Shown here piece by piece: positions 932 to 58,844 of a stretch of DNA of 64,000 bases. This DNA comes from Tomocerus qinae (Eukaryota > Arthropoda > Collembola > Entomobryomorpha > Tomoceridae): contig CM034546.1 in NCBI GenBank assembly GCA_020055645.1, forward strand, positions 54,808,001-54,872,000, given 5' to 3'. The translations under genes were made by a program, and so were the position numbers. The first letter of the stretch is position 1. Every line of letters starts with the position of its first letter. The notes under the pieces are model-generated. The model saw nothing but the letters and a program-made list of their open reading frames with translations, was not told the DNA's origin and did no database searches.

Positions 932-1524
932 TTAAGGAAATAGATATGTCTCCTTACTGCTTTCACCATGAACCTTTACTCTGTGTAAAAACATTAAATG
1001 GAAAGTAGGAAATACTTGTTCGCAAACATCACACTTATGTTGCCAGTGGGTCAACATATGATTTTTCCAATTTGCAGATGAAGAAAAACATTTTCCGCAG
1101 TCTACACATTTAAACACTTTGTTCACTGTCGTTTTTACTTTTGGTGCTTCGCTATCAACAGTTGAATGGACAATATCGGCTGTAATCTCTTCGCGAATTT
1201 TGATGGTGTCTTTTCTCCTGTTTGGTATTTTTTGCCCTACCAAAGCAGTAGTATCTTCTAAACGTTTTAGTTGCACAGTTCTTTGATTAAATACTGGTTT
1301 TGCATGACTTTTCTTGTGAGTTTTTAACTGTTTCGAATTAGCAAAATTCTGATCACAAACGTCACATGTGTAGCTAATTTCACAACTTGATTGTATCTGA
1401 TCTGATCCTGATGAGATAACAACTTGTCCATCAACCACTGTGCCCTCAACTATCTCGAGTGGATCATTTTCCGGTGAAAGTCTTGACTCTTCTTCTGTTA
1501 TATACGAATCATGAACAGATGTAC
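932..1524 (-). other. Gene 1 terminal C2H2 zinc-finger exon (intact)
   Basis: The exon opens with an acidic motif (EEESRLSPENDP) shared with the other copies. It then gives a finger YTCDVCDQNF..LKTHKKSH, a basic spacer, a finger FKCVDCGKCF..WKNHMLTH and directly a third, HKCDVCEQVF..LHRVKVH. Fingers 2 and 3 are joined by one residue (W-Q). This is the only intact copy among the three linked to THAP arrays. Confidence 0.78.
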
Positions 1525-4500
1525 CTAATAAAATATTTTATTTTTTAGATTCGGATACACGGCAATTCCATAACACATTGATTTATTTAGCATTAGATGT
1601 GCAATTTCGAAACTTAAGTACCTACATGCTTTATTTATAACAGAATGCTACAAACCTGTTTGCGAAAAAGACAAACTTTGCCCAACGCCTATAATTGGTG
1701 TATTTTCTGCTATAGTGTCGTCTAGTTGATCTAAACATCAAAAAATATTTTATTTGATTTGTACATTTGCATCTATTTTAGAATTTTTAATTTAATAAAT
1801 AAATTGTTAACTAGTTAAGCATTCATAATGTTCAAAACGTTTAGTCACAAATTAAAATAAATGGTAAAAACAAATAAAAATACCAAAAAATCAAGTCTAT
1901 TATATTTTTGAATTTTCTATAAGCGAGGAACAGAATTTTATATGAAAATGGATAAAAATTATTTATCATACCTTCTGTGAGAAAAAGAGTTGGTACCGCT
2001 TTGCTAAAAAGTAATGCCTTTTGGGGTGACAACTCACAAAATGATTCTTTAACGAAATGTCGTATACACACAGATGAGAAAATATCTGGTTTCCAGCCTT
2101 CATCATTTCTTGATATTCTGATATTTTTAATCCATTTCTTTCTTGTTACAGGGTAAAGTTCCTCACACGGAAGTCTACACAATTATATGTTGAATTAGAC
2201 ATTTAAGTTATGAATGCTTAATTTACAAGAAAAAACTAGCATTATTACTTATAGAAATTAGCTTCTTTGCATTTAAGCTGACAATTGCCAATTACACACT
2301 GTGGCTGCTGTTGTAGTATGTTTGGTGTTCTATTCGTGACGGGAATAGGCTGCAACAACCGGATATCTTTCGTTACAGGAATAGGCGGTTCTAAACATTT
2401 CACAGATAAATCCGAATTTATTAACCATAAATAAAACCATTACATCATATTATGTCTTATTAATAATATAAATATTGCCTATATCCAAATGTTAAAGTGT
2501 TGGAATAATGCAGAGTGTCAAACTCATTTTCAAATTTCGGTTTCAAACTTTGGAAGCTTAAAGTACTAATAGTATATTCCAACACTAAAATGGTTACGAA
2601 TCGGATTTCATTGCAACTGTATTATAATTAAACAGATTCTCCTTCAGCACTGACGTTAAATAGTGTTAAAACTGACTGCTGCTGCATAATTAATATTATT
2701 TGACATTGACACATTTGATATTGACATAATAAGCTTCCAGATTTCTCACTGTTAATGATTCTCGATATTTAAATACTTACAAAACAGAAATGCGAATTCA
2801 AAATATTGACAAAATTCAAATCAACAAATTATAAATTATATTATTATTATTATTATAAACTACGATTTCAAATTAAACTTGATCAAATAATATGATTGTA
2901 TGAATACTGACAACACGATATTATATTCCAAAGAGACTAGTACGTATTGCTATTTTAGATAAATAAATTGTCACCTCCATACTTTAAACTCTAATTTATA
3001 ATTTCTACAAATGAGGAATAAAATTTGATAAAAATATTTATTGTACCTTCTGGAAGAAAAAGAGTTGGTACTGCTATGCCAAAGAGTATTGTCTGGTAGC
3101 GCGTCACACAAAATGATTTTTCATCAAAATGTCGCTTACAAACGGAAGAAAAATTATCTGGTGCCCAGGTTTCCTCTCTTCTTGATTTTTTGATTATATC
3201 AATCCATTTGTTTCTTGTTACAGGGTAAAGTTCCTCACACGGAAGTCTACACATTTATTTGTACAATTAATTACAGTTCCAAATTTATTATAAAGTATAG
3301 TATAAAAAACAAAAATTATTACTTAAATAAATCGTCATCCGTTAATCCTGAATGGCAATTGCCAATTACACATTGTGGCTGTTGCACTTCATTTGTTGAC
3401 ACAGAAATTGAAACATGAGTGTATTTGTCTGAATAATCTGAAATAATGAAAAGATCAATTCTTTTGGATTTCTTACAAAACAATCGGTGCTTTTTTACGC
3501 TAGTACGAATCAAACTCAGAGTCAAAACCGATTAAATTAATATCTTAAATAATATTAATTAATCATAAACTTCAAACATGGACACGGATACGATAGTCTT
3601 TCGTTTCTCATCTTAATATTTAGAATAGTCTCCTACTAAGGACGAAATTTGTCGTTGTATGTCTGTTTAGGCAGAATGTGCATGTTTTAGTTTTCGACTG
3701 CAATAATAGTTGTTTCAAATTAGTTCAATCCCTTACTCGGAGCACTCAAACTTATAATAGATTTGATTTCATTTCTTTATATCCAAATCTTAATTTAATT
3801 CGATTTGATCCTGAGTTTGATTGTTAATATGTATTGTGCATCACACAATTCTATCTAAATTGCCATCTGGTTTAAGATAACGTGTTAAGGCCGATTTTTG
3901 GCAGAAGATGTAATAGATAAATGTTTGAATAGCACCATACACAGAAACCTCGGCTTTACTTTCATAGGGTTAAACTGCCCCACCGGATTGAGGGGTCCCA
4001 GCTTTTAGATAGTTACCATAAAAACGATAAGACATTTTGAAAAAGGGTTTCGGGGTATGAACAGCACTTTAGCAATGTATTACCGCTGTTAAGGTTGAGA
4101 GTTGGGATGTCATCACTGATGAGTGCGTTTTGTGGAAAATGTCTTGAACAAACTCTTGATTCTTTGTTCGCTTTCCAATGCTTATCTCTTCTTGATTCTC
4201 TAATTATGCGAATCCAAGCCTTCTTTATCTTCGGGTTGTCATCAGGTATACTAATATAAACATAAAGAATGAGAGACTTAAAAACTTGGATTTAATTAAT
4301 TAATTTGTATAATTGTGAAATGAATTAAAGTAACTTACCTATACATAGAAATTATCTTATTTCCGTTTTCAATGTTGTCGGTATTGCGATTGCATATTGC
4401 ACAGATTTGTCTTGCACACTGGAGCTTGAATTTCACTTCGGGGTCTTAAAATACAACAGAATCATATAAAAATGAAATTTCGTCAATTTATGGCCAGTCA

Positions 4501-7500
4501 TTTAATTCCTGGTTAGCTGTAAAAGACTGCGTTCTTGAATATTCTACCTTCTAGCTGGTATACGACACTTAAATCAAGCGTAATGTATACTCTGCTAAGG
4601 CTGTTAAACACAAAATAATACCTTCAAGAAATTGGGTTGGCACCAAGTAGTTTACATCTTCGGGTTTTTTAATTGAACCATGAGGAAAATGCTTTCCGCA
4701 TACAAATGCACTATCTTCCCGGGCCATCCAGTAACTTTCTTTTCGTGATTTTCTAATTATTTCAACCCATGCTCTTCTTATATCAGGGTAATGTGACCTC
4801 GGAGGAACCCTAGCAACATAATGATAGTGTAAAAATTATTTTATAAGCAAAATATTTCAGTCTGAAATTAATTAATCTTCTTACGGATATAATGGCATAA
4901 GTTCTTCCCCATTCCTCTTAATCTCATATCACAATTGCGAATTACACAAACTATTGGGTTAGAGGATGATTTCTTTTTGGGTGCTGCAAATATATAACAG
5001 AACCATAAAAAATGAAGTACATTTTGTCAATTAATGGCCAGTCATTTAATTCCTAGTTAGCTGTAAAAGACTATGTTCTTGGATATTTTACCGTCCAGCT
5101 GGTATACAACGGTGGTAGGTCGATTTGGCAAAAAACATTTTTGCAAAAGTTTTTTGCCACAAATTTGACCCCTGGATAATTTAGCAAAACGGCTTTTTAC
5201 CAGGTCGCAACATACGACACTTACACTCTGCTCAAGGTTGTTAAGTACAAAATAATATTACCTCCAATAAATAGGGTTGGCACCAAGGAGTTTACATCTT
5301 CGGGTTTTTTAATTGAATCCGGTGGAAAATGCTTTCCGCATACATATGAATGGGAATGGGGCTCCCAGTTACTTTCATTTCTTGATCTTCCAATTATTGC
5401 AATCCATGCTTTTTTTACTTCAGGGTGGGTTGTTTTCGGAGGAATCCTATCAAAATATTGATGATGTAAAAATTGTTTTAAAATCACAATACAAAAATGT
5501 CAATCTGAAATTCACAAACCTTCTTACCGATATAACTGCATAATACGTTTATTACATGTTTCATTTGTTTTCATATCACATTTGCCTATTGCACAAACTA
5601 CTGGATAAGTGACAGGGGACGATGATTTCCTTTTGGGTGCTGGAATTATGTAACAGAAATAAATAAATGTACTACCAATAAGGAAAGTTAAAATCCATAT
5701 AATGATGCTACCATATGTGAGGTACTGTACCTAATCGCTTTGTAGAGGAACCAGAAATCTTCAGACTCTGCAAAGTCTCATTATTTCCAATTTTTGCTGC
5801 GGAGGATAATGGGCTATTTGCTATTTCTAGTTCAGACGACGAATGATTCTCAATTTCAATGGTTGCTGCATTATTTTCGATTATTTCGACACCAGGAGAT
5901 GGCGGATTTTCTGTTTTTAATTCGACTGATGGAGATGACGAATAAGTTTGAAAACATATTGATGCAGGTGACTCGGATGCTGTAATCTCTTCCACAGATA
6001 AAGGATTTTCGAGATTAATTTCAGCAGAAGAAGTAGGATTTTCAATTTTTACTTCAACGGGGAGCGATATTTCGTTCTCAAAATATATTTCCATAGGAGA
6101 CATTGGATTTTCTGTTTTTATTTCAACTGATGATGATAAATCAGTTTCAAAATTAATTTCCCGTTGAGAGCTGAGATTTTCATAATAAACTACTCTTAGG
6201 TTTTCACAATCCTCTTCAAATGGAGAAAAATGATTTTCTACTTCGACTTTTACTTGGCATATTGGAATCTCAATTTCCTCTTCTTCGGACGGCAACGGAT
6301 TTTCAAGTTCCATTTCCACGGTAGCAGCATTTACTACTTGAGTTACAATAACAATTAATATTACATCCTTTAAATATTTAAACTCTTCGTGCAAGCAAAA
6401 CAATATGGTTTAAAACCAAATTACATAATGGTCGCTATTAAATGCACAATCAATTTGATATGGTCAGATTTGGTAAAAAATTGGAAGAACAAAATTTTGG
6501 ATTTGTCTCTAATCATTTTATCAAAGAAAATTTCTGAGAAAGTCTGTAGTATTATATGTAAGCACGAAAATTAAAAATAATTAACTATACCATTTTCAAT
6601 AAGAAGAGTTGGCATGGCTTCATTTTGAAGAACAGATTTTCCATTTGTGTCAATATTGATGAATTTCGGATCAAAATGCCGTGAACACACTTGTGTAAAT
6701 TTATTTGGTAGCCAAGAATCGTCATTTCTAGATTTTCGTATAATTTCTATCCAGGCAAGTTTTAGTTCGAAATTGCTTAAACCGGGTAACCTAAGAGAAA
6801 TAATCTTTACATTATAATTCAAAAATATAATGTCGAAATATTTTGTTTTATATCGATATAATTTTTATCTTCACTGATGAAAAGTAGTTGTATTCTTGCA
6901 ATTTATATCATTCTGTATATCACAGCCACCAATCGCGCAACAGTAATCATTTTCGTAAGGCTTATTTGCATGGTCTCTAGAAACTGCAAAGAAAAAAAAC
7001 ATTATGCACTACTGCACTAGATTAACAAAATATTTAATATAGATTCGATATAGGTAATTTTTGGCAGGTTTCGGAAAATCTTTAGCATGACATTACCGCT
7101 TTCAAGGTTGAGAGTTGGGATGTCATCACTGAGTGCGTTCTGTGGAAAATGTCTTGAGCAAACTTTCGAGTCTTTCTTTGGTTCCCAACTGAGGTCTTTT
7201 CTTGATTCTCTAATTATACGAATCCAAGCCTCCCTCAACTTCGGGTTGTGTGCAGAAGGTATACTAAAAACATAAAAATTCAGTTTAGATTAAAAAATTT
7301 GGATTTCATTAATTAATTTGTATAGTTGAGTAACGAATTAAACTAACCTACCTATACATAGAAATTATCTGATTTCCGTTTTCAATGTTTTCGGTATTAC
7401 AATTGCATATTACACAGCGTTGTTTTGAATACAGGACCTTGTGGAAGAAATTCACTTTGGGGTCTAAAAATACAACATAATCATATAAAAATGAAATTTC

Positions 7501-10500
7501 GTCAATTAATGGCCAGTCATTTAATCCTTGTAAAAGACTACGTTCTTGGATATTTTACCGTCTAGCCGGTATACGACATTTACACCACGTCTAATATATA
7601 TTATTCTTGTTAAGGTTGTTAAGCACAAAATAATATTACCTCCAATAAATAGGGTTGGGACCAAGGAGTTTACATCTTCGGGTTTTTTAATTGAATCCGG
7701 TGGAAAATGTTTTCCGCATACATATGAATAGGAATGGGGCTCCCAGTTACTTTCATTTCTTGATCTTCCAATTATTTCAACCCATGCTTTTCTTATTTCA
7801 GTTTTCGGAGGAATCCTATCAACATTTGATGGTTTAAAAATTATTTTAAAAGCACAATACAAAAATATGTCAGTCTGAAATTTACAAACCTTCTTACCGA
7901 TATAACCGCATACGTTTATTACATGTTTCAATTGTTTTCATATCACAATTGCCTATTGCGCAAACTACTGGATAAGTGACAGGGGACAATGATTTCCTTT
8001 TGGGTGCTGGAAATTTGTAACAGAAATAAATAAATGTACTACCAATAAGGAATGCTAAAACCCATATAATGATGCTACCATATGTGAGGTACTGTACCTA
8101 ATCGCTGTACAAAGGAATCAGAAATCTTCAGGCTCTGAATAGTCTCATTATTTCCAATTTTTGCTGCGGAGGATAATGGGCTATTTGTTATTTCTAGCTC
8201 AGAGGATGACTGATTTTCAATTTCGACGGCTGATGATAATGAATCCTCAAAAATCACTTCTGCAGGAGCTGCATTATTTTCAGGTGTGAGTATTTTGACT
8301 ATTTCTGCTTCAGGGAACGACGGATTTTCAATTTTGACATCGGCAAACAATAAGGGATCAGCAGTACCAATGAACTCTGTGGAAGCAGTAATAAAATGAT
8401 CTTCAACTATTTCCACTTCAGAAGAATCTGAATCTTCGATTTTTACTTCTACTGGAAATGATAAATGAGTATCATTATCTATTTCCACAGGAGACGTAGG
8501 GTTTTCAAATTTTACTTCAATTGGGGACGACTGAGACGTTTCAAAATATATTTCTTCCTCAGTAATGAAATTTTCAATTTTAACTTCCCCCAAATTTAAA
8601 GAATCTCCACATTCTATTTCAAATGAAGATGAAGGATTTTCTATTTCTATTTTCATTGGATACAATAACGGAGTCTCAATTTCTCTTTCTTCCGACGACA
8701 AGGAGTCATTAGATTTTGCATGCATGGAAGATAAAGAATTTTCATGTTCCATTTCCATTGCTGTTGGATTTTCTATACGAGTTATAAAAAACCAAAAATA
8801 AATCCTAAGCCTTTAAAATTTTCAAGCAAGCAAACAACTTAATTAAATCCATTTTAAATAATTATTATTTTTAAATGTACAGTAAAATTAATATAGATTT
8901 GATGGAATATTAGACAATAGCTTATAAATACAATTAACCAAATTGACCAAAACAAAGGGGTTTAATTTTATACGATATAAAAACATATATTTTTGTTGCA
9001 AATGGCAAATACATTATAGATGGAAATATATCAGTGAAAATTGTCATGCAAATCTACCATATTAAAGTGCAAAGGTAAAAATCGTTTTACTCTACCATTC
9101 CCAAGACACAAAATTGGCAAAGCGCCTCTTTGGAGAGTGGCATTTCCACTTTTCCCAAAATTGATGACATTTGGGTCAAAATGTCTTGAACATATTCGGG
9201 TTAATTTATCTGGTTCCCAAGAATCGTCATTTCTAGATTTTCGAATAAATTCTATCCAGTCATTTCTTAAGTCGAGGTTACCAGTGGGAATCCTAAAAAC
9301 ATATTTCAGTGAATATATTGAAACTTCAAATTCTAACTTAAAAATATTAGAATAACTTATATTTTATATTCTTACCTAAGAAAGTAAGGTTTTTTCTTGT
9401 AAATTATGTTACTTTGTATATCACAGCCACTAATCGCACAGCTGTAATTATAGTCTTCATAGGGTTTAAAGTATGTATGGTCATGGTCGTTAGCAACAAT
9501 ATTATTTTGTGGAATCGCGTTCTGATTATTATCGCCGTCCGCTGCAGATTCTAAAATATAAAAGGAGGATGGAAAATTTAAATAAAAAATCATTACAAAA
9601 AAGACTGCTAAAACTAAAAGGCCTTATACCCTAAACACCTAATCTAACCATAGAGGTTATAATAATATAGAGGCATAATCCTTTCAATGGTACAAAAAAT
9701 CAATCCCTATTGTTTTCGAGCGATTATGCAATAATAGGTATCGGTAAATTACAGTCGGACCTTTTAGTCGGACCGTAGAGCATAATATGATTTTAAAACA
9801 TACCTTCGTGAGAAATTGGATCCACATGTCCGTCGTCACCGAAAGATTGACTATTTTCCATTACGCATCCCAAAATAACTTCTCCATCTAAATTTTGAAT
9901 ACAATGTTATCATCATTAGGATTATAGGCAACGCCTTACTAATATCTTGCCGTTTTGCTTCTTACCGGAAAAAATAGTGGGAATGGCATCTTTATCTAAT
10001 ATACCGATATTAGGATATTTTAAAATATATTTTCCCTCAAAATGACTTGAACATACAACCGATAATTCATTTGGTTGCCAATTATTATTTTTTCTAGATT
10101 TTCTGATAAATTCAACCCATTCCTTCCTTCTATCAGTATTGGGAGATTCGCCTGGGATTCTAAACCATAATTATTTTTGTTTTCAACTTTTAAATTAATA
10201 AATTTATTTAAATATTACTTTGATATTTTACCGATAAAAAGTAGCTGATCCGTTTTTGCTAGCAGTATTTTCATTATTACAACCACCTACACTACAGTGG
10301 TGATAACCAGGAAATGGCAAGCAATCGATCAAAGCCTTTGACCCTAAAATAAAATACAATTAAGTAACATAATATTATGGCGTTAAATGTTATAATGTAC
10401 ATACATACTACATTACATGTTATACATATTTATATTGTTTATTTATATTTATATAGCCAAATATAAGATAATTTATTTTGAATCACTTTCACTGCTTTTC

Positions 10501-11418
10501 TTTTATTGACACTCAATTTTTGCCATTGTCATAGAAATTAAGATTTAAAAATTAAATCAAACAGATATCATATAACTGAAACTAAATGAATATAAGTATT
10601 ATTATAAGTGGTTCATCAAAAACATGGAACGTGTTTTAGCACAGTAAGACGGTTTTCTCAAATGTAGCATAATAATATGAATGAACAGCCTTAAAGCAGT
10701 TTATAAGATGTTAATGTCACACGATTTTCATTTTTCTTTGAAAAAGTTTAGGAATTGGAATAAGTCAAACTTAAAAAAATTTAGAAATCTTATAGAAATA
10801 TTGGGTTCTTCTGTCTACAATGTTTAGGCTAATCATGTAGATAATTGTGGAAATACTTTACATAATTTCTTTTTACCAATAAATAGACAACCCTCATTTA
10901 CGAAATTTTATGTATCTGTATTTTCCTTGTCGAATTATGTCAGAAAAAAGCCTCTCAGTACATATTTAAAAACATTCTAAGTTAAGAATTGGTATTTAGT
11001 TGAAGAAGGAAAAAGAAAGTGTGGTTGTTGTAAAATACCTTTGCCAAGGAAAAGGGTTGGAATAGCCCCAGGGGTCAGTATGTTTCTAAATTTTGTCACC
11101 ATGAAACATTTTCGGTCGAAATGTCTTGAGCATATTCTGTAATTTTGTTTTGGTTCCCAGCTGTAGTCATCTTTAGATGCTCTGATAATATCAAGCCAGT
11201 ACTGTCTAACCCCTGGACGAAATCTGGTACCTGATGGAAAGCTAAATACTTCGGTCATTAGATATCATTATTTTCCCCGGCAGTATTAATAAAGTTTATT
11301 AAAAATTAATTTTGTGAGCTTACGTATGCCATGACGAAATGGAACTTTCTCTACGATTTTGAAGTGTGCAACCAGATATCATACATGCACCGTGTATGTA
11401 TTTACACTCTGGCATCAT
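932..11418 (-). CDS. Gene 1: giant protein with eleven THAP domains and C-terminal C2H2 fingers
   Basis: I built this from 27 exons: eleven A+B pairs, two short linkers, two long acidic exons and one C2H2 exon. It is predicted to be a nuclear, multi-site DNA-binding protein; THAP and C2H2 domains are zinc-dependent DNA-binding folds. The start is a double ATG at 11416-11418 and 11413-11415, preceded in frame by a TAA. Downstream intron phases agree throughout (2 inside each THAP, 1 elsewhere) except at exon 4885-4983, which is one base out of register. Summed exons give about 5.4 kb, roughly 1,800 residues, ending at TAA 932-934; an AATAAA lies on the minus strand at 806-801. A consensus-like donor just before the stop (GTAAGG, at 957-952) would allow a further exon left of the window, so the C-terminus is uncertain. 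The family is clear; use as one transcript is inferred from phase, not shown. Alternative splicing or several transcripts are possible. Confidence 0.75.
1656..1730 (-). other. Gene 1 short linker exon before the C2H2 exon
   Basis: A 75-base phase 1-1 exon encodes an acidic then Ser-rich peptide (contains DQLDDTIAENTP). No domain is recognised. Confidence 0.6.
1972..2390 (-). other. Gene 1 THAP module 11
   Basis: Exon A 2249-2390 has a Gln/Pro-rich lead and CVIGNC. Exon B 1972-2174 has CIRHF and AVPTLF. It is the last THAP before the zinc-finger exon. Confidence 0.8.
3047..3437 (-). other. Gene 1 THAP module 10
   Basis: Exon A 3323-3437 (CVIGNC) and exon B 3047-3246 (CKRHF, AVPTLF). The B exon starts with LPCEELYPVTRNKW, almost the same as module 11. 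Confidence 0.8.
4084..4444 (-). other. Gene 1 THAP module 9
   Basis: Exon A 4339-4444 (CAIC) and exon B 4084-4250 (CSRHF, DIPTLN). Same subclass as module 5. Confidence 0.78.
4622..4983 (-). other. Gene 1 THAP module 8, exon A one base out of frame
   Basis: Exon B 4622-4809 is intact (CGKHF, LVPTQF). Exon A 4885-4983 has CVIRNC but is 99 bases long, where 1 mod 3 is needed. The missing register falls near a GGGG run, so a sequencing error, real decay or skipping of both halves are all possible. Skipping the pair restores frame. Confidence 0.6.
5262..5639 (-). other. Gene 1 THAP module 7
   Basis: Exon A 5528-5639 (CAIGKC) and exon B 5262-5446 (CGKHF, LVPTLF). Lengths keep frame. Confidence 0.8.
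5731..6333 (-). other. Gene 1 second long acidic linker exon (201 aa)
   Basis: A 603-base phase 1-1 exon with repeats of the E-N-P-x-S-P-x-E type and no interruptions. The preferred donor is GTACAG after the codons for STKRL; reading through instead reaches a stop at 5708. It is a duplicate of 8098-8772 with several internal repeat units lost. Confidence 0.72.
6591..6983 (-). other. Gene 1 THAP module 6
   Basis: Exon A 6875-6983 (CAIGGCDIQ) and exon B 6591-6790 (CSRHF, AMPTLL). Belongs to the CDIQ subclass with module 3, gene 2 THAP 2 and gene 3 THAP 2. Confidence 0.8.
7097..7463 (-). other. Gene 1 THAP module 5
   Basis: Exon A 7352-7463 has a short first Cys pair (CVIC). Exon B 7097-7263 has CSRHF and DIPTLN. 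Closest relative in the window is module 9. Confidence 0.78.
7640..8006 (-). other. Gene 1 THAP module 4
   Basis: Exon A 7898-8006 (CAIGNC) and exon B 7640-7815 (CGKHF, LVPTLF). Nearly the same as module 7, including flanking intron sequence. Confidence 0.8.
8098..8772 (-). other. Gene 1 long acidic Ser/Pro-rich linker exon (225 aa)
   Basis: This 675-base, phase 1-1 exon is entirely open. It encodes irregular repeats of about 10-12 residues of the type E(I/V)-E-N-P-x-S-S-P. The composition suggests a flexible, phosphorylatable acidic region, possibly a transcriptional activation or cofactor-binding segment; that role is inferred from composition only. The last part closely matches the second acidic exon (5731-6333), so the two are recent duplicates. 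Confidence 0.72.
9096..9550 (-). other. Gene 1 THAP module 3
   Basis: Exon A 9376-9550 has a longer Asn-rich lead before CAISGC. Exon B 9096-9292 has CSRHF and ends ALPILC, so the usual PTLF motif is altered. Confidence 0.78.
9804..9887 (-). other. Gene 1 short linker exon between THAP 2 and 3
   Basis: An 84-base exon with phase 1 at both ends encodes an acidic peptide containing SFGDDGHVDPIS. No domain is recognised. Skipping it would keep frame. Confidence 0.6.
9966..10343 (-). other. Gene 1 THAP module 2
   Basis: Exon A 10232-10343 (CSVGGC) and exon B 9966-10159 (CSSHF, then AIPTIF). Lengths keep frame at phase 1 outside and phase 2 between the halves. Confidence 0.8.
11039..11418 (-). 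other. Gene 1 THAP module 1 (N-terminal, with start codon)
   Basis: Exon A is 11324-11418 and begins with the start codon; it holds CMISGC. Exon B is 11039-11241 with W in QYWLDI, CSRHF and AIPTLF. The A donor is GTAAGC and the B acceptor is phase 2. All four zinc ligands are present. Confidence 0.8.
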
Positions 11419-14200
11419 TAAACTTGATTAAACTAGTGCAATTCCTTTATTATTGTGTCGCTTGAGCCAGTAATGTTGGAAGCCTATAAAAAATAAATGA
11501 TTGTCACTATCACCGCAATCTCTATTATTATTTGTATAACAAAGTACAGTAAGTAGGCTGTACTAATAAAACAAAACAAGATATCGAAATGAAACAGAAA
11601 GTTGCAGTCTACAATCTAGATGAGGGGCTAATTTTAATATTTCAAAAAATTCCATTAAGTAATTCAAATAGGTATTTATGAATAAGGGTATTTCCTTTTT
11701 GGCATCACCTAGCATCGCATCAAGCATCTGGGCTTGAGCGGAATATAAAAGAAAACAATGTACAATATCAAAGATTTTATCAGTTACTGTTTTATTATTT
11801 TAACTATTTTACATAGACGCAGGCGGTCCAGAGAGCTAGGTTAGGCTAGGTTTTTGCCATTAACGAAAACCCCTTTACTAAGTATCATTGATGAATGATA
11901 TTACCATAATTCTCTTTCAAAGATCATTTCATGCACCCACAGCTTAATATTTAAAAATGTCTAAATGTTTTGATTTCTCAATTTTTTGATTGTTTAGTTT
12001 AAGAGATATATATTTCATCATCACAATTCATGTTGCCTTATTTCATGGAAGTAAAAATATTATTCAAATCGAAGCGAATGTAAGATTATAGCTAACAGAG
12101 TTCACAGCTTTTTTGTCAATTAGTAATACCAATTCGTATTTTTAAACGAATGCTTAATAATAGACCTTATTCATATTAGCATCAGCGCCACTGCTGTTAG
12201 GTATAACGAGAACGGCGAAGGTTACTCAAACGGGTAAATGAATGAATAGTAACCGTTCGCACACCGGTGGTATACCGCCACACCACGTGACACACCCAAA
12301 CAAATACATACAATACAGATTCATTCTAAGTGAAGTTGAAATAGAAGAAACCGTATAGCTAAGCCTCCTTTTTGTTGGGTTTTTTATAAAGTATACTTGG
12401 AAATTCTAAGACGTTAATTAAAATGAGTTGCAGAAATAATAAAATAAATAATAAAATTGTAATACGGCTCTGCTTCGTTTTTAATAAAATTTTCAGGTTT
12501 TCAAGGATTTAAAACGAATTGCTAATTTTTGCAAAATTACATTTCAAAATTTAATACATGGATAAGCCTATTAGGCAATTATTATTATTATTAATTACTA
12601 TAAATTATTTCCAAGTATACTTTATAAAAAACCCAACAAAAAGGAGGCTTAGCTATACGGTTTCTTCTATTTCAACTTCACTTAGAATGAATCTGTATTG
12701 TATGTATTTGTTTGGGTGTGTCACGTGGTGTGGCGGTATACCACCGGTGTGCGAACGGTTACTATTCATTCATTTACCCGTTTGAGTAACCTTCGCCGTT
12801 CTCGTTATACCTAACAGCAGTGGCGCTGATCCTAATATGAATAAGGTCTATTAATAACAATTATAATAGGTGAATAACTATTAAGTAAACAATAAAAATA
12901 CTAAGTATAAAATGCGATAGTACTGTGACGGTGCAAAATATAACTTTTAAACGATTTATCTGAATTAATTACCTTCTTAATAGCTTCTTTAGTTCTCCAT
13001 ATTAAATGCCTTAAACTGAAATGTTGAATGTTGTCGAGTCACTCCATCTCCAATCTTGAATCTCTCTAATAAAACAACATAATTAAATTCAGAAAAGGAT
13101 ATACGTTTTCACGTAAGAGTTTACAATTAATTTTAGTTTATCATTAGTGATTAAAATTACGTCGTTGTCGTTACCCAGTTTCTGACTTATAAAAGTGAAA
13201 TGGATGAAGGAATTTAAATCATGACTGATATAACATGAACTGACTTAAAGATGCTAAATTAATCAGTTTTATTCAGTAATGTTGAAGTAAAGTTGGTTGA
13301 AGGTTTCAATTGTCAATTTAATTTGAAACGAATGACGATGGACGAAGGATGAAGGAACTGTGAACTGACTGACACTGAACTGCTGAACTGAAGAAAAACA
13401 CAAGAAATGAAAATATACAGAATAAGATAACAAGCTTTGAATTTCGTGCACAGTGAGACTTCCTCTATTGCGACCATGAAATAGCTTATCAATAGGTAGG
13501 TGCGGTGGTTTTGTATCATTATTTTGTAGGAGAGGAAAACGGTTGAAAGAAAAATTGGATATTATATTGGAATTGGAACATTGGAAGTATGGAAGTTTGG
13601 AATTGGAAGGAAAGGAACCATTATTGTGCATTAAAACCGTAAATTATTGGGCTGTTTTCATTTTCATCAATTTCAACTATTTAAGACCAATAGACCAAAG
13701 TCTATTGGTCTTAGTCAGTCAAAGTCAAAGAAGTTTGTTTGGTTTAAACTTTCATTTCATTTGGTTTTAACGTTTTGGACGTTATTATTTATTCACAATA
13801 ATCATGATTTTTACAAGTAACATTTTACCAGTTTGGTAATACAGTGGATAACCACTGTATCAGATCAGGCTATGTAGCTTGTTACTTTGTCACAGCCATG
13901 ATAAATAAATGGCTTGTTACCTTGTAATATTAAGCAGACGATATAATTCATATAAATAATAAAATGAGTATTTTTAGTTTTGTAAGTCTACAAATACGCG
14001 GGTTCTATTCATTATATTATAATATTTCAAAAGGTAAAATAGTCACATTTGATCCAAGTAATTTATTACATTGATTGACATCTCTGAAAAGGAACAAAAT
14101 ATTTATAAACTGTGTATGCAGTAAAACAATTAGTATTAACTACGAATGGATTTCTTAAAGTAATAATGCTATACTAACTTACATTTAGAGGTAATATATT
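11419..14200. other. Intergenic region between gene 2 (3' end) and gene 1 (5' end)
   Basis: No coding exon is supported. It should hold the promoter and 5' UTR of gene 1 and the 3' UTR of gene 2. A fold-back element occupies 12161-12850, and a short perfect hairpin (ACCAATAGAC / GTCTATTGGT) lies near 13688-13712. Confidence 0.5.
12161..12850. mobile_element. 690-bp fold-back element (TIR family Z)
   Basis: Two long arms, about 12161-12405 and 12606-12850, are inverted copies of each other. The ends read TAGACCTTATTCATATTA and its complement, and a 7-base direct repeat TTAATAA flanks both sides (12154-12160 and 12851-12857). It has no transposase ORF, so it is a non-autonomous DNA element. 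The other copy in this window is 58845-59554 in the duplicated contig. Confidence 0.8.
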
Positions 14201-14749
14201 TATACAGGTATATACTTTGCATTGTATCCAATCATGTGCCTTTACTATGTGTGAGAACATTAAATTGAACGTTGGAAATACTTCTTCGTAAATATCACAT
14301 TTATTATGTTGCCAGTGGGTCAACATTTGGCTTTTCCAATCTGCAGGGGAAGAAACACTTTTTCACAGTCTTTACATTTCAGCACTCGATATTGACTAGA
14401 CGTTTTTCTACTTGTGCTTCGTTATCATTACTCGAATGAACAATATCAGTTATAATCTCTTAGCAAATGATGGTGTCCTTCCTCTTGTTCAGTCTTGTTT
14501 GACGTAAGCTGTTTTATCTCTTACGCGTTTTACTTGGACACTTCTTTGATAAAATACGATTTCTGTATGAATTTCCTTGTGAGACTTGTAACTCTTCTGA
14601 ATCAGCGAAACGTGGATCACAATTTTCACACAGGCAATTAATCGCAGAATTTGATTGCATTGGGTCCACTGATACATTTTATGGTATAACTACTTGTCCA
14701 TCAATTACTGTACCCTCCAATATCTCGAAGGGTTCATCTTCTTGTACAT
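14200..14749 (-). pseudogene. Degenerate C2H2 exon of gene 2
   Basis: It aligns along its length with the gene 1 and gene 3 zinc-finger exons. An in-frame TAA at 14679-14681 comes 23 codons in, and several later frame changes follow. The first finger is also damaged (CENCDPRF). The remains of fingers 2 and 3 lie at about 14260-14380. Confidence 0.75.
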
Positions 14750-17700
14750 CTGCAAAATAATAATTTTCATCAACCATTATCAATCGGGAAGACAAAAAAT
14801 ATATTAGATTAGTACATTCAATTAAAATATTTTAATTTACTGCACCCTGACATTAAGAATTAAATTATTAACAGATATGGATTTTAATATTTATATCTAA
14901 GTGTCCGTCAAACAATCCGACATGACTTTATTTAATTATAAACATTTACAAAAAGAATGACAAAAATCAATCAATCAATACAACAAATAAAAAAATGAAA
15001 TACACACCTAAAATAAATTTCCAGCTTCAAAGTAATAAATATCGAATAAAAAGTAATGAATAACCAACCTCTTCCCAGATGTAGAGTAGGAACTGCAGTT
15101 ATGAACAACTTAGTCTTTTGACAAGAAATAGCAAAATATTTTTTTTCAAAATGCCTTGAGCATAAACGAGAACTTAATTTAGGAACCCAACTACTATCAT
15201 TTCTTGACTTTCTAATGAACTGGATCCACAAATCTCTGACTTGTATATGTTTCTCGCTTGGAATTCTAAATACATAAAATCGTTAGTTGTAGAAGTTAGT
15301 TTTTGATACATTATTTATTAGTTTTCCATTTTAACGATGTTACCTGTGCCAAGAAATTAATTCTTTGTGTTTTAAACGTTTCGTTGTATCACAGTTAAAA
15401 ACAGCACAACAGTGGCATCCACTCTTTTCGATTTGTCTACGAAGCGAGAATACTAAAACAAAAAATAGAGCGTTTTTTGGTTAGTTTTATCGTTTTCAAT
15501 TAAATATATTTAAGTAAATTATTTATAACAAAAAAATAATTTTCGAATAGCATTATCTGCTAACTGTCATTTTTACTGCTATTTTAGTATGACCTTATAG
15601 TTTATTTAGCAGAGTTGCAAGGGAGAAAAGGAATTTTTGACTTAAAACCCAAAATTTTTTCGTAATTATTTGTCGCCCCCCCTGAAATTTTTTATGGCTG
15701 CGGCCCTGTTAATTAGTGTCATTACACTTTTGTCCCAAACTGAGCATAGGAAGTAGAAAAGTGGACTTAGCAGCAGGGCGGAAATTCCTATGCTACATTT
15801 TACATTGCTTAGCAATGGGCATGTTTAATTGTAATTAACTTGTTCCACTTATAAGTGTAAATTCATACCTGAAGTTTGGACATTATCCAATAGAAAGCCT
15901 CCTTGTTCGACAGTTAGACAGTTAGTAGTATAATTCTTTGGAGAGGTCAAATGGTTTACTATTTGCGCAGGGGAGTCAAGATTTTTAATTTCAAGGACAT
16001 CCTGAGATGAGGGGTTTTGTATTTCTTCGTTTGCTTCCGTTTCTGGATTACTTTGAGATTGAGGGTCCTCTACATTAAACACTAAAGAAATTATGTAACT
16101 AAATTTTACCAATTTTCTACGTCAAAATAATAAATATCGAAGAAGACTTTACGAATAACATTAAAATAGACACCTCTCCCAATATTCAAAGTAGGAACTG
16201 AATTTCTGTACAACGTAGTTCGGCTATAATTGACGCTGAAATCTTTCTTTGCAAAATGCCGTGAGCATACAAGAGAATTTGCTTTGGGTAGCCAACTACT
16301 TTCATTTCTTGACTTTCTAATAAATTGGAGCCACACATCTCTGATTTTTAATCGTTGCTTATCTGGAATTCTAAATATATAAAAATTTCAAACGTCATTT
16401 GTTTACCGTTACATTATTTATGTATTTTTAAATTTTAGAAATTTTACCTATGCCAAGAAACTAATCCTTCATGTTCTGAACGTTTCGTTGTGTCACAGTT
16501 GAAAATGACACAACCATGGTTTCCAATATTTTTATTTTGACTACCATAAGACAATACTAGATCAAAAACAGAAAATTTATTTAAAAGGTTTTCATTTTTT
16601 CATTTAAATATTATACTTGTTTGTATTGATTAATTGTAATTTGCTTAAAATAGCATTATTGCTATAGGGTATTATCAGACTCATATTCAGAGGGGGTGCT
16701 TGCGCCCCCCTATATTCCAGTGAAAGAGGATTTAGTTTGTCAAAAAACGGTTTATAAAAACAATTTTCGCCCTTAAAAATGTATTTTCACTTTTCACCAA
16801 TATTTTTTGGTGCTTGTCTGAGTGTACAATCAACATACCTGAGGTTTGGGGATTATTCCATGAAAAGCGTCCTTGTTCCATAGTTTGAAAATTATTTATT
16901 GGAGAGTTCAAATGGTTAACTATTTGCAATGGAGATTCAAGATTTTCAATTTCCACAACTTCCGGAGAAAAAGGGTTTTCTATTTCTTCGTTTGCTTCAG
17001 TTTCCGATTTCTCTTGAGATTGAGGGTCCTCCATACTAAAATCTAAAGAAATTGTTTAACTCGAATTTTAGATCAAAAGAATTATTGATAAAATTCCTGG
17101 GTATATGCCTGGGTATATAGTATTACGCATATTTTCAAAAATTAATGTCCACTTCTTATCTATTTATTTAGAAATCCCATAAAACGGATATACCACCTGC
17201 AGTGTACAAAATTTACCACTTTTTAGGCTTTTTTACCATCACAATGGTAAAAAGCACTTAATGGTATAATGGTAAAATGGTAAATTTTAGCGATTTATTT
17301 TAGGAAGCTTAGTACAGAAACACAAGACTTCCTAAAATATAGGTTTTAAAACTTCGTTTTCTATGAAATAATATTTCCAATTAGCCTCTTAGTTAATCAA
17401 ATTAATCCAATTTATTTGATTGTTTACCGAAAGTTGTAAAAAATGCTACTAGAACCAAGACTAATATATTTAGATTCTTTAATTGCAATTCATTTCTCAA
17501 TTAATGTTTTCGATAATGTACCCCAACGCATACCTCTATGTACTAAATTTAGCACGTAGGTATGCTTTGGGGTACATTATTGAAAACATCAATTGACAAA
17601 TAAGGGCTCTTAGTGCCTCTATATTGGTTGAATCCAACTTTGATTGATGAATTGAATACTTATCAATTTGTGACAACAATCATCAGCTGCTAGGCTATTC

Positions 17701-20700
17701 CATACTTTGGCGCCGAATTTTATTCAAAATTTAAACACAAAATTTAACTAGCCTAACCCCACTAACAAACGTATGGATATTAGGCTTTTTCCGCCACCAA
17801 ATAAAAATAAGATTTTGACTTTTTCGTTCCTTAAAGGACAATATGTATTTTTTTTAAATTCATTAAATGAGTCAAAAATAGGCAAAAAATGACAAACTAA
17901 ACTGTTTTGTAATTTCAAGTAAAATTTTTCTTCTTTTTTTTGTATTTCGAGAGAGTATTTGTTCTGGATGCCCCCCTTAATACATACAGCATTGCCACTC
18001 CTTAATATTACCTCTAGACTTATTTCTCCTAATAGCGACACAAAATTGTCTACTTTTACTGTCAACATAATGTGAATGTTCATTTTCACTTAGTTTTGCG
18101 TAAGCTATACTGTCAATAACAGTCAACAGTGGATTATGGTAAAATTGTAATTAACTTATTTGTCTAAGTGCACAATCAACATACCTGAGGTTTGGAAATT
18201 ATTCCTTGGAGAGTTCAAATGATAAATCATATGAGATGGAGATTCCAGATTTTCAATTTCCACTACGTCCGGAGATGAGGGGTTTTGTATTTCTTCGTTT
18301 GCTTCAATGTCTATTCTTTCTTGAGATTGAGAGTCCATCATACTAAAATCTAAAGAAATTGTGTAACTAGAATTTTAGATCAAAATAATAAAAATCTAAC
18401 AAAACGTTACGAATAACATTTAGATAAGTACCTCCTCCAATATTTTGAGTAGGAACTGAATTTCTGCACAACGTAGTCCGTTGATAAGTAAAACTAAAGT
18501 CTTTCCTTTCAAAATGCCTTGAGCATAAAAGAGAATTTGATTTAGGAAGCCAACTATTATCATTTCTTGACTTTCTAATGAACTGGAGCCACAAATCTCT
18601 GACTTGCATGTTTTTCCCGCTTGGAATTCTAAATATATAAAATCGTTAGTTTTAGGAGTTATCTTTTGATACGTTATTTATTAATTTTCAATTTTAAGAA
18701 TGTTACCTATGCCAAGAAATTAATTCTTTGTGTTCTAAACGTTTTGTTGTATCACAGTTGAGAATGACACAACTGTGGGAACCACTCTTTTCGATTTGAT
18801 TACCATGAGAGAATACTAGATCAAAAACAATGTATTTGTAAGTTATATCCTTTTTCATTTAAAAATATTTTATTAGGGTAATTTTTTTTGCCCAACATAC
18901 AGTGAGCAAAGAAAATAAAAACAGTCGACCAAAATTTGCTTTACTGTCATAGTCATGGCACTACATTTTATTTTACGATTCTTAGCACTAGAGAGGCTTA
19001 ATTGTATTTAACTTGTTTGTCTTATATTGTAAAATCTACATACCTGAAGTTTGAGCATTATGACTTGAAGAGTGTTCTTGTTCAATAGGTTGACAATTAT
19101 TGTCAGACTTCTTTGGAGAGTTCAAATGGTTAACTATTTGCAATGGAGATTCAAGATTGACAATTTCTACTACATCCGGAGATAAGGGGTTTTGTATTTC
19201 TTCGTTTGCTTCAGTTTCTATTCTTTCTTGAGATTGAGTGTCTTCCATACTAAAATCTAAAGAAATTTTGTAACTAGAATTTTGGATCAAAGTAATAAAA
19301 ATCTAAGAAAACGTAATGAATAACTAACCTCTTCCTAGATGTAGAGTAGGAACTGCAGTTTGGAATAACCTAGTCCGTTGACAAGAAATAGAATAATATT
19401 TCTTTTCAAAATGCCTTGAGCATAAACGAGAATTTAATTTAGGAACCCAACTGCTATCATTTCTTGACTTTCTAATGAATTGGATCCACAAATCTCTGAG
19501 TTGCATGTTTTTCTCGCTTGGAATTCTAAATATATAAACTCGTTAGTTTTAGGAGTTAGGTTTTGCTATATTATTTTATAATTTTCAATTTTAAGAATGT
19601 TACCTATGCCAAGATATTAATTCTTTGTGTTCTAAACGTTTCGTTGTATCACAGTTAAAAATAACACAACCATGGGATCCACTCTTTTCGATATTTCTAC
19701 GATGCGAGAATACTAAAACAAAAACAGAGCGTTTATTTGGTAAGTTCATTCTTTTTCATTAAAAAATATTTTTATTTGGGTAAATTATTTTTTTGCCCTA
19801 CAGTGAGCATAGGAAATAAAAACAGTGGACCAAAATTTGCTCTACTGCTATGGCACTACATTCTATTTAATGGCTGGCCCTTCTCTTGTAATGTCCTTTC
19901 GGAAATCACCCGCTGGCCAACAACTCATTTATCCGACTTCAACACAATATGTGGATATATATACACTGTATCCGAATCCACTCCCAACAAATATTAGCTG
20001 ACCAATAATACCCGCTTAAGCAAGTGATAAACATTTAACAAAATCCGAATTTTCGGATTAAATTGTGAAAATTTGAAGATTTTAATAAATGTTTTGTTGG
20101 CCAGCGGGTGATTTCCAAAAAAACATTACAAGAGAAGGGCCAGCTATGTTCTATTTTACATTGCTTTCCACCAGGCAGGTGTAATTAACTTTGTCTTATA
20201 ATTGTAAAATCTACATACCTGAAGTTTGAGCATTATGACTTGAAGAGTGTTCTTGTTCAATAGTTTGGCAATTATTGTTAGACTTCTTTGGAGAGTTCAA
20301 ATGGCTAACTATGTTTACAGGGGAGTCAAGATTGACAATTTCTACTACATCTGGAGATGCGGGGTTTTGTATTTCTTTGCTTGCTTCAATATTCATTTCC
20401 CAGGGATAGAGGATCTTCCATCAATTTTTCTTCCAGAAGAGTAGGGCTCTCAATTTTAATTTCATCTGATGATAAAAGATTTATAATCTCCATTTCCTGT
20501 GCATTTATTTCATTTTCCATTTCCAGCAGAGATAAGATTCCATTCTTGTTTATTTCTTCTAAAGAAAAAGGACTTTTGATATCAAACACTACTGAAGACA
20601 AAGGATCCTCAATTTCCACTTCCTCATAAAACATAGGATCCTCAATTTTTTCTTCCACAGGAGACAAAGGATCCTCAATTTTCTCTTCCTCAGGAGACAA

Positions 20701-23284: not shown

Positions 23285-23984
23285 TACGAACGAAGAGAAG
23301 TGACATAATTTGACATAATGAGAACGAGAACTGAGAACAGAATTTATGAAAAGTTTAGAACCAATAAGCTTTGAATTTGGTTCCACCTGGCGCGGCTTTT
23401 AGACTACTGAATAGTGATTTAATATTATGATATTTTTATCATTCACTCCATTCATTCCAGTTTCATTTGCATAATTTCCTAATTTTCCGATTATATAATA
23501 TTCCATCCTTCGAAGTTTTAACTTCGTAGAGAATACTAACTACATGGCTATTAAATCAGAATAAAAATGCAATTTAAAAAAAATATTTATCTTTACTACT
23601 TCTGGATTACTAACTGCGAACCATGATTGTTTTATTTTATAACTTAGTAGTTATCTAAAATTTAATGAAATTTAATGCAGATAATTTGAAATGCAGAAGT
23701 CATTCTAAGCTTCAACGTTGCAAGTATCCAAACCACAAAAGTCAATTTCTATCTAATGTCATATGCTATCCCTCAAGCTAACGCATTTGAAAATATCGTT
23801 TTTCATATACATTTTTAAACCACACAAATAGTAAAACGCGGATTCAATTTAAACAGGAACATTTTATTGAATTTGACTAACAAAGATCTGAGAAGTAACA
23901 AAATATTTGAAAACTGTGTATACAGTAAAACATTAGCAGAAACATTACTTACAAATTAATTTCATGGAGTAATAATGCTAAACT

Positions 23985-24611
23985 ACGTTACCTTTTAAGG
24001 TAATAATATAAATGTCTCCTTACTGCAATACTGCATTCCTCATGTACCTTTATTATTTGTGAGAACATTAAATTGAATGTTGGAAATACTTGTTGGCAAA
24101 CATCACATTTATGTTGCCAGTGGGTCAACATAATATGACTTATTCCATCTGTAGGGAAAGAAAAACATTTTCCACAGTCTACACATTTAAGCACTTTGTA
24201 GACTGAGGTTTTTTTCTACCTGTGGTTCTTTATCAGTAGTCGAATGGTCAATATCATTTATAGTCTCTTAGGGAATTTTGATTGAGTCTTTTCTCGGGTT
24301 CGAGCGAAGTCTTTTTTGTGGTACCGAATCTGTTTTATCTCCTAAACGTTTTATTTGCACAGTTTGATAAAATACGGTTTTCGTATGAATTTCCTCGTGA
24401 AGCTTCAATTGTTCGGCATCAACGAAACGTTGATCACAAACGTCACAGGTATAACTAATGGTAGAATTGAATTGCATTTGGTCCACTGATACATTTGATG
24501 GTATAACTAGTAGTCCGTCAACTACTATAGCATCCATTACCTCTAATGGATGATTATCCGGTGAAAATCTTGACTCTTCTTCTATCACATTCGCGCCGTC
24601 AACAGGTTGGT
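23985..24611 (-). other. Gene 3 terminal C2H2 exon, cut by a stop
   Basis: The acidic lead and finger 1 (YTCDVCDQRF..LKLHEEIH) are open. TAA at 24268-24270 replaces a Glu codon of gene 1. A further frame change precedes the finger 2 and 3 region (CVDCGKCF, CDVCQQVF) at 23988-24194, which is otherwise well kept, so the damage looks recent. Confidence 0.72.
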
Positions 24612-34248: not shown

Positions 34249-34540
34249 TTTAGTTCAATTATTGCAAACCTGTCAGAAATAGAGAGTAATGTTAAGTTAA
34301 GTTTAAGCAGCAAGACTTTTAGAAAATAAGTAACTTAAAAATAAATTAAAATTCAAGGATTATAAAAATCTAATTTCATGTTTTTGTTTTTGGTATAACA
34401 ACAACAACTAACTGCGTGTCTTCATCATTGGCTATGACAAGAATTTGCTAGAAAAATTTGCTCAAAAAGTTTCGAATGTCGAATAAACTTTTGGAGACTT
34501 CTGGTGATGCGGCTTATAGTTACTTTTCTACATTCTCACC

Positions 34541-34659
34541 CAGGGCCGCAGCCAGAAAGACATTTCGGGGGGGGGCCTTCAAATTATAAGCGAAACATTT
34601 TTGGGTTCTAAGGCAAAAATACCTTTATTTGCCGGTCGCCCCCCCTGGCTGCGGCACTG
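34541..34659. mobile_element. Short inverted-repeat element with G/C-rich ends
   Basis: The left end CAGGGCCGCAGCCA pairs with TGGCTGCGGCACTG at the right. A poly-G tract follows the left end and a poly-C tract precedes the right. A half-copy with the same right end occurs at about 15672-15712 in gene 2. Confidence 0.5.
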
Positions 34660-34725
34660 TCTCATCTAGTATAAGCATTCCATAAGTTTTTTCCACTCAT
34701 TCATTAGAAATAAAATGGATAATAT

Positions 34726-34853
34726 GACACAATATGGCACAATAACAAATAATGGATCATATGGCACAACATGGCACAATGAATCATGTAGAACAACATG
34801 GCACAATGGATCATGTAGCACAACATGGCACAATATGGCACAATGGATCATAA
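34726..34853. repeat. Minisatellite of GGCACAA / GGATCAT units
   Basis: Repeated ATGGCACAA and ATGGATCAT words, about 20-27 bases per unit, cover about 130 bases. Intergenic. Confidence 0.75.
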
Positions 34854-36401: not shown

Positions 36402-36724
36402 TCAGCATCCAATTATCACTTCTGCTTCATCTTTCACAGCATCATTTCCTTCTACCAAAACAATTATTCAATCTATTATAACTTCTTATGGAACTTTAAG
36501 AGAAATAATTTTAAACATGTTTTATAAGCATAACACCATAATATTAACAAAAGATATATTATTATTAATACAAGATTATTGCATTGTACTTCAAACGTCA
36601 AATATTATGCATTTTAATTTTTATGTACTGGCTGTACCTGTTTGGGAACTCATAGTCTCATTAATTTGGACTCTACGTTTGACAATATCGTCCAGAGGAG
36701 ACGACGCTTTGTCCTTTAGATTAT
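36402..36724 (-). other. Gene 4 C-terminal linker exon and last exon
   Basis: Exon 36638-36724 (phase 1-1, contains SSPLDDIVKRRVQI) is followed by an acidic last exon 36402-36451 that ends at TGA. Confidence 0.48.
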
Positions 36725-53628: not shown

Positions 53629-53728
53629 NNNNNNNNNNNNNNNNNNNNNNNNNNNNNNNNNNNNNNNNNNNNNNNNNNNNNNNNNNNNNNNNNNNNNNNN
53701 NNNNNNNNNNNNNNNNNNNNNNNNNNNN
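53629..53728. other. Assembly gap of exactly 100 N
   Basis: A run of 100 undetermined bases, the usual placeholder for a gap of unknown size. Sequence right of it does not continue the left side. Confidence 0.99.
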
Positions 53729-58084: not shown

Positions 58085-58844
58085 CAATTAAACTTGATTA
58101 AACTAGTGCAATTCCTTTATTATTGTGTCGCTTGAGCCAGTAATGTTGAAGCCTATAAAAAATAAATGATTGTCAACTATCACCGCAACTCTCTATTATT
58201 ATTTGTATAACAAAGTACAGTAAGTAGGCTGTACTAATAAAACAAAACAAGATATCGAAATGAAACAGAAAGTTGCAGTCTACAATCTAGATGAGGGGCT
58301 AATTTTAGTAATATTTCAAAAATTCCATTAAGTAATTCAAATAGGTATTTATGAATAAGGGTATTTCCTTTTTTGGCATCACCTAGCATCGCATCAAGCA
58401 TCTGGGCTTGAGCGGAATATAAAAGAAAACAATGTACAATATCAAAGATTTTTATCAGTTACCGTTTTATTATTTTAACTATTTTTTACATAGACGCAGG
58501 CGGTCCAGAGAGCTAGTTTTTGCCATTAACGAAAACTCCCTTTTACTAAGTATCATTAGATGAATGATATTACCATAATTCTCTTTTCAAAGATCATTTC
58601 ATGCAACTCCACAGCTTAATATTTAAAAAAATGTCTAAATGTTTTGATTTCTCAATTTTTTGATTGTTTAGTTTAAGTAGATATATATTTCCATCATCAC
58701 AATTCATGTTGCCTTATTTACATGCGAAGGCAAAAAATATTATTCACAAATCGAAGTTAATGTAAGATTATAGCTAAATAGAGTTCACAGCTTTTTTGTC
58801 AATTAGTAATAACCAATTCGTATTTTTAAACGAATGCTTAATAA

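Follow-up and report, generated by a model that had tools for sequence, protein, structure and literature searches.

The exon chain of copy A

The window analysed here is a 64,000-nucleotide stretch of the genome of the collembolan Tomocerus qinae (assembly GCA_020055645.1, contig CM034546.1, positions 54,808,001 to 54,872,000 of the forward strand). Near its left end (932-11418) lies a chain of 27 exons on the minus strand, here called copy A, which runs from an ATG at 11418 to a stop codon at 932-934 and encodes eleven THAP domains, two acidic linkers and three C2H2 fingers. Exons were fixed from translated open reading frames together with a small exon-chaining script and inspection of splice sites, and the chain was rebuilt exon by exon. 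The rebuild agrees with a first-pass annotation made from the letters alone, which had described one ATG-to-stop chain of these same elements, with 26 of 27 exons in frame and a length of about 1,800 residues. Read through, the product is 1,798 residues long, including one X at a frame slip in THAP8. In the following list, N and C denote the exons encoding the first and second half of each THAP, L the linkers and X1 and X2 two small exons.

THAP1, 11039-11418, minus strand: N1 11324-11418 with the ATG (MMPEC...), C1 11039-11241
THAP2, 9966-10343, minus strand: N2 10232-10343, C2 9966-10159
Small exon X1, 9804-9887, minus strand: phase 1-1
THAP3, 9096-9550, minus strand: N3 9376-9550 with a DHTY motif, C3 9096-9292
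Acidic linker L1, 8098-8772, minus strand: 225 residues, 49 D/E against 11 K/R, five psiKxE motifs
THAP4, 7640-8006, minus strand: N4 7898-8006, C4 7640-7815
THAP5, 7097-7463, minus strand: N5 7352-7463, C5 7097-7263
THAP6, 6591-6983, minus strand: N6 6875-6983, C6 6591-6790
Acidic linker L2, 5731-6333, minus strand: 201 residues, 39 D/E against 10 K/R, four psiKxE motifs
THAP7, 5262-5639, minus strand: N7 5528-5639, C7 5262-5446
THAP8, 4622-4983, minus strand: N8 4885-4983, C8 4622-4809, out of frame with each other as assembled
THAP9, 4084-4444, minus strand: N9 4339-4444, C9 4084-4250, second Cys of C-x4-C replaced by Arg
THAP10, 3047-3437, minus strand: N10 3323-3437, C10 3047-3246
THAP11, 1972-2390, minus strand: N11 2249-2390, C11 1972-2174
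Small exon X2, 1656-1730, minus strand: phase 1-1
Terminal exon, 932-1524, minus strand: three C2H2 fingers and the stop codon

Each THAP is encoded by two exons, the first carrying the C-x4-C pair and the second the Trp, the C-x2-H-F and the closing AVPTIF-like box. N1, which carries the ATG, runs from phase 0 to phase 2, the remaining first-half exons run from phase 1 to 2 and the second-half exons from 2 to 1, and the linkers and small exons both begin and end in phase 1. N8 is the sole exon that fails to join in frame. We rejected a treatment of the 26 in-frame junctions as independent coincidences, since cassette duplication carries exon phases along with the exons. The 26 introns measure 72-695 bases. 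Scored with generic matrices that were written in and untrained on copy A, the median splice donor ranks within the top 6% of the strand's 3,196 GTs, and the median acceptor within the top 10% of its 3,241 AGs; weak sites are the donors of N6, N10 and N11 and the acceptors of C1, C2, C10, L2 and N11. Downstream of the terminal exon an AATAAA is found at 806 (minus strand), similar hexamers being frequent inside the AT-rich copy A.

Profile searches recovered both domain families, as the first-pass annotation had proposed to check. Submitted to Pfam in two pieces, the spliced product gave six THAP stretches (PF05485) in residues 1-1070 and five in residues 1071-1798, the pieces scoring 238 and 145.8 bits, respectively (cut-off 23.9). 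The zf-C2H2 profile reached 50.1 bits (cut-off 25.2), two stretches passing alone, and a pattern search placed three C2H2 fingers, at residues 1655, 1741 and 1766. THAP and C2H2 were the sole families to reach cut-off in the spliced protein; a Lipase_GDSL_3 match fell below its own, and at E 0.001 Pfam found neither a transposase domain nor a ZAD domain there. The THAP fold is named by profile match, the profile also matching the solved THAP1, THAP2 and THAP11 sequences (E 3.7e-13 for 2ko0). Invariant in all eleven THAPs are the first Cys, a Pro, two Trp, the Cys and His of C-x2-H and the Phe that follows, along with the Pro of the AVPTIF-like box, one Ile and one Ser. The second Cys of C-x4-C is kept in 10 of 11; THAP9 has Arg at that position and a Cys three residues past the first one.

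The failing exon, N8, is shifted by one base compared with the sister exons N4 and N7, so that its donor stands in phase 1 while C8 needs phase 2. The first-pass count of 26 in-frame exons out of 27 is confirmed; the break sits in THAP8 and would truncate the full chain, a point on which that annotation was silent. Joined as assembled, the 27 exons encode 1,212 residues before a stop codon, enough for seven THAPs but for none of the C2H2 fingers. Leaving out N8 alone gives a stop at 1,179 residues, whereas a chain that lacks both N8 and C8 is 1,702 residues long and keeps ten THAPs together with the C2H2 fingers. The stretch around the slip is short and contains a run of four G. The slip may be an assembly error, a polymorphism or a fixed lesion, either of the first two being plausible.

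Paralogous arrays and the right end of the window

Paralogous THAP-linker-C2H2 arrays, overlooked by the first-pass annotation, occupy the same strand as copy A between 14 and 45 kb:

Array B, 14083-22667, minus strand: six THAPs (15.07-22.67 kb; the first frame-shifted), linkers and a broken C2H2 exon at 14083-14741
Array C, 23860-39056, minus strand: nine THAP second halves (26.06-39.06 kb), a repetitive acidic linker and a C2H2 exon at 23860-24711
Array D, partial, 41795-45010, minus strand: an open C2H2 exon at 41795-42577 and THAP pieces at 44.3-45.0 kb broken by frame shifts

The exon structure of copy A recurs in these arrays. Among the 25 open second halves to the left of an assembly gap at 53629-53728 (the frame-shifted B1 and the pieces of D were excluded), an in-phase (phase 2) acceptor lies near the start in 25 of 25 and an in-phase (phase 1) donor near the end in 24 of 25. 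The range searched was wide enough for chance finds, so a strict count is the better guide: 23 of 25 have the acceptor at the identical site, and in 22 of 25 the donor lies at most 4 bases from the domain end.

THAPs were grouped into types by a tree of these 25 second halves, in which some supports are low. A1 and C1, each the first THAP of its block, grouped weakly; frame shifts kept B's first THAP out of the tree, but its DNA matches that of A1 at 76% over 184 bases. The type comprising A3, A6, B2 and C5 stands directly before an acidic linker in four of four cases (A3-L1-A4, A6-L2-A7, B2-linker-B3 and C5-linker-C6), and in both A and C the last THAP ahead of the C2H2 exon is of the type comprising A10, A11 and C9. 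The last four THAPs of B (B3-B6) form a group of their own. An order of THAP types common to A, C and partly B suggests that the chain is an ancestral unit.

Several repeats accompany the arrays. The acidic linker of array C contains a coding minisatellite at 30393-31601, in which a unit of 99 bases, encoding 33 residues, is repeated about 12 times, and a tandem duplication at 28371-28906 consists of 1.9 copies of a 276-base unit. Imperfect palindromic repeats of about 220 bases, related to each other, lie beside the THAP3-type exons of B and C at 20897-21125 and 32239-32461. A foldback element (12149-12862) lies in the interval that separates the dead C2H2 exon of B from the beginning of copy A; it has 256-base inverted arms, 98% complementary, and a 202-base spacer, and is also present in the second copy described below.

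The assembly gap, of 100 N, is followed by a sequence (53729-64000) that repeats most of 8269-17140 with 2-5% substitutions, a feature that the first-pass annotation likewise overlooked. This second copy shows 166 insertion versus 14 deletion events, with gap columns amounting to 3.7% in coding and 4.2% in intron sequence, and is probably an unpolished second haplotype. Reading frames in 53629-64000 are unreliable, and the THAPs of 53729-64000 were left out of the THAP counts. Nested inverted repeats totalling about 1.2 kb (TAGGCATTAAGCTTAATGCC units) at 55880-57092 occur in the second copy and are absent at the matching place in the THAP1-THAP2 intron of copy A (around 10424-10429), a probable insertion difference between haplotypes.

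Elsewhere in the window, nine further open frames were scanned with Pfam and none reached a cut-off, although two gave weaker matches. A single THAP second half compared with viral and prokaryote contigs had no confirmed relative, and the C2H2 exon matched no phage record, results that say nothing about animals.

Coding constraint and the extent of the gene

We examined coding constraint by comparing the pN/pS ratio (nonsynonymous over synonymous differences) of paired modules with neutral runs at 50% or 65% transitions, the statistic being the fraction of runs at or below the observed value; introns here show 46% transitions among 181 changes. A1, A2 and A8 stood outside the pairs. The last value for each pair is the percentage of 50% runs in which a stop is expected in at least one place.

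A4/A7: pN/pS 0.63; neutral fraction 0.30 (50%), 0.34 (65%); stops expected in 44%
A5/A9: pN/pS 0.99; neutral fraction 0.68 (50%), 0.79 (65%); stops expected in 82%
A10/A11: pN/pS 0.76; neutral fraction 0.32 (50%), 0.49 (65%); stops expected in 97%
A3/A6: pN/pS 0.56; neutral fraction 0.037 (50%), 0.12 (65%); stops expected in 95%
L1/L2: pN/pS 0.54; neutral fraction 0.003 (50%), 0.007 (65%); stops expected in 99%

Between copies, the neutral fraction was 0.003 at both settings for A6/B2, and 0.08 (50%) and 0.26 (65%) for A3/C5. Within B, it was 0.027 (50%) and 0.057 (65%) for B4/B5, while three other pairs were nonsignificant. Thus, the linkers and A6/B2 are clearly constrained, A3/A6 and B4/B5 marginally so, and for the remaining pairs constraint is not shown. 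No stop was observed in any pair of copy A, a test biased in favour of coding because the modules had been picked as open frames.

Whether copy A is one gene or several bears on what it encodes. A start codon opens a first-half exon in only one of eleven cases (N1), in eight of the ten internal first halves the upstream frame reaches its nearest stop without passing an ATG, and in N3 and N6 an upstream in-frame ATG is found only within intron sequence. Each block, moreover, has a single C2H2 exon. Taken together with the recurring THAP order, one first half with its own ATG and one C2H2 exon per block make a single gene the best reading. We consider it reasonably probable that copy A is one gene for a nuclear multi-THAP/C2H2 protein of about 1,700-1,800 residues that grew by cassette duplication and was itself duplicated in tandem. 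Of the reading given in the first-pass annotation, the chain stands as observed and is best read as one gene, whereas the single mRNA is something we infer from the exon structure.

A number of observations weigh against this reading. As described above, the full chain as assembled is truncated at THAP8. The C2H2 exon of B is broken by stops and frame shifts, one stop occurring also in the second copy (60.8-61.6 kb), and that of C carries one stop and one frame shift, so that decay is common in this array; moreover, B ends in a separate THAP group, and its order accordingly matches that of A in part only. The pN/pS of A5/A9 is near neutral, A4/A7 and A10/A11 are nonsignificant, and the significance of A3/A6 is gone at 65% transitions. 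Methionines near the start of L1 and L2, and one inside X1, mean that shorter products are possible, and AATAAA-type hexamers are scattered through copy A. Exon chaining is likewise divided. At a gene penalty of 0 and an exon cost of 10 it gave one gene from 11415 to 4951 (19 exons, seven C-x2-H-F) and a split at THAP8, with a further split at L2 at exon cost 12; at a penalty of 5 the breaks fell at THAP8 plus a second point lower down for exon cost 6, and near THAP10 for exon costs 10 and 12. A penalty of 10 returned one chain, which held all 11 C-x2-H-F for exon costs of 10 and 12 and 10 of them for a cost of 6, though spurious extra exons at both ends set it apart from the curated model. 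These results for penalties of 0-10 come from exon costs 6, 10 and 12, and, as the codon score was trained on exons of the window, chaining is not independent evidence. Runs with a negative gene penalty, which shattered the region into at least 73 tiny genes in the rows seen, were ignored.

The same chaining splits, at THAP8 and L2 with no penalty and at THAP8 or near THAP10 with a penalty of 5, would be expected if copy A comprised two to four shorter genes, each transcribed alone, such as [THAP1-2 or 1-3], [L1-THAP4-6] and [L2-THAP7-11-C2H2] or similar. The methionine codons near the linker starts and in X1 would permit such starts, and AATAAA/ATTAAA hexamers occur in the introns. In opposition to this arrangement, L1 and L2 are each preceded by an acceptor that is usable and of the right phase (scores 5.6 and 2.4), the four short linkers of copy B likewise have an acceptor and a strong donor, and the 26 introns are 72-695 bases long; with one C2H2 exon per block and eight of ten internal first halves lacking an in-frame upstream ATG, we regard separate genes as unlikely. 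Copy A might instead be a gene in recent decay, once encoding the full multi-THAP protein but now truncated at THAP8 and turning into a pseudogene like its neighbours. Besides the THAP8 slip itself, the lesions in the B and C C2H2 exons, including the B stop common to both copies in the window, and the weak or zero constraint on some THAP pairs agree with decay. The other 26 exons of copy A are nevertheless open and joining, mostly with good splice sites, its terminal C2H2 exon is intact, and constraint acts on L1/L2, A6/B2 and, less surely, A3/A6. The slip, in a stretch with a run of four G, is plausibly an assembly error or polymorphism, and the THAP8 cassette can be skipped in frame. On this balance recent decay seems to us distinctly unlikely.

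We see very little chance that the array, in part or in whole, arose during assembly from collapsed or mis-joined haplotypes. The gap at 53629-53728 and the insertion-riddled second copy beyond it (166 versus 14 events), in which coding and non-coding sequence are affected about equally, would suit such an origin, but copy A lies 42 kb away from the gap with 26 of its 27 exons joining, and its THAPs are just 24-38% identical to the first one, so that they are not mis-assembly copies. Another possibility extends to all 44 kb of the same-strand array. Since complete THAPs and linkers begin and end in phase 1, splicing could keep or omit individual cassettes, or even link those of adjacent copies across the dead C2H2 exon of B, and the array might then act as one cassette locus, which we regard as quite improbable. 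If true, one locus would yield different chains of DNA-binding fingers, and the THAP8 lesion would be tolerated through skipping.

Origin, known relatives and proposed function

The exon structure of copy A also bears on its origin. By profile alignment, the intron within each THAP splits the codon aligned to Lys24 of human THAP1, past base 2. Intron 1 of human THAP1 lies after coding base 71, that is, base 2 of codon 24, the variant c.71+9C>A being near its donor (PMC4049367). Human THAP1 differs from copy A in having one THAP and no C2H2 finger, as opposed to eleven THAPs plus C2H2, but shares the domain by profile as well as the codon and phase of this intron, which fits descent of the array from an ordinary host THAP gene. 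Copy A would have grown by duplication of symmetrical phase-1 cassettes, each one whole two-exon THAP, and the whole gene would then have been duplicated in tandem as well, yielding copies B, C and D.

Proteins with several THAPs are already known. Caenorhabditis elegans HIM-17 has six and is strongly associated with m1m2 motif pairs in promoters derived from miniature inverted-repeat transposable elements (PMC9757741). Like the protein predicted for copy A it joins several THAPs in one chain, with six rather than eleven, and the portion of that source available to us mentions no C2H2 fingers or psiKxE linkers. For Drosophila and C. elegans, PMC13228809 notes earlier reports of genes with multiple THAP repeats, as in copy A (it cites Clouaire 2005), and states that such genes are present in a sea star and a sea urchin. 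The Drosophila proteins CG6689 and CG10431 combine THAP with C2H2 fingers, as copy A does (PMC9810180). According to the same source, both belong to the ZAD-ZNF family, and in CG6689 the first two exons encode the single THAP, which is N-terminal; in contrast, Pfam found no ZAD in the copy A protein at E 0.001. P-element/THAP9 transposases share the THAP but have a transposase domain, which was not found in the copy A protein at E 0.001. Expansions of the THAP family are also reported in insects, hundreds of copies being cited for the pea aphid (PMC13270666). Copy A exceeds the six THAPs of HIM-17, the best-described example, and no described eleven-THAP protein with C2H2 fingers appeared among the matches listed (titles and abstract starts), in which subscription papers are mostly uncovered. 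A Drosophila protein with many THAP copies may also have been listed; a literature search for THAP with the gene name CG14860 was without match. If there is such a protein, high THAP copy number alone is not new.

Short motifs hint at cofactors. [DE]HxY is a motif of the HCF-1-binding kind, and copy A contains it once, as DHTY before THAP3, where 0.18 occurrences are expected from shuffles. DHTY is kept in A3, B2 and C5. Some human THAP proteins bind HCF-1 (PMC6402169), and the motif before THAP3 may likewise recruit it. The 1,798 residues contain nine psiKxE motifs, every one of them in a linker and three with Pro on both sides, compared with a mean of 0.92 and a maximum of 6 in 20,000 shuffles of the linkers. 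By motif match only, the Pro-flanked sites resemble the synergy-control motif, a SUMO consensus flanked by proline or glycine that limits activation at multi-site promoters (PMC3554661). The psiKxE motifs of the linkers may accept SUMO and so dampen activation at places with many bound sites. Points to the contrary are that A6 has lost the tyrosine of DHTY, that the shuffle tests count a repeated linker motif as independent, and that the scanned linkers of B and C have 0-1 psiKxE, which limits the SUMO idea to copy A. A phosphorylation-dependent SUMO motif, psiKxExxSP, was dropped for having 0 exact matches.

By analogy with HIM-17, the product of copy A is most likely a multi-site DNA-binding regulator working in a similar manner. 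What the sequence shows directly is its anatomy, the exon phases, the conserved zinc ligands, the duplicated THAP-type order and coding constraint on part of the chain, whereas the nuclear location, DNA binding and biological role are inferred. Several THAPs and the C2H2 set would contact clustered short DNA sites simultaneously, such contacts would make the protein prefer repeated sites, and cooperative binding would be expected by analogy with HIM-17. Through multi-THAP proteins, DNA-binding domains of the transposon type are linked to the control of host genes, as illustrated by HIM-17 at its promoters of mobile-element origin. With about twice the THAP number of HIM-17, skippable phase-1 cassettes and tandem copies, copy A would be a good system in which to follow how such arrays grow, and in which to ask what number of fingers is used at once and whether the arrays track the spread of repeated target sites.

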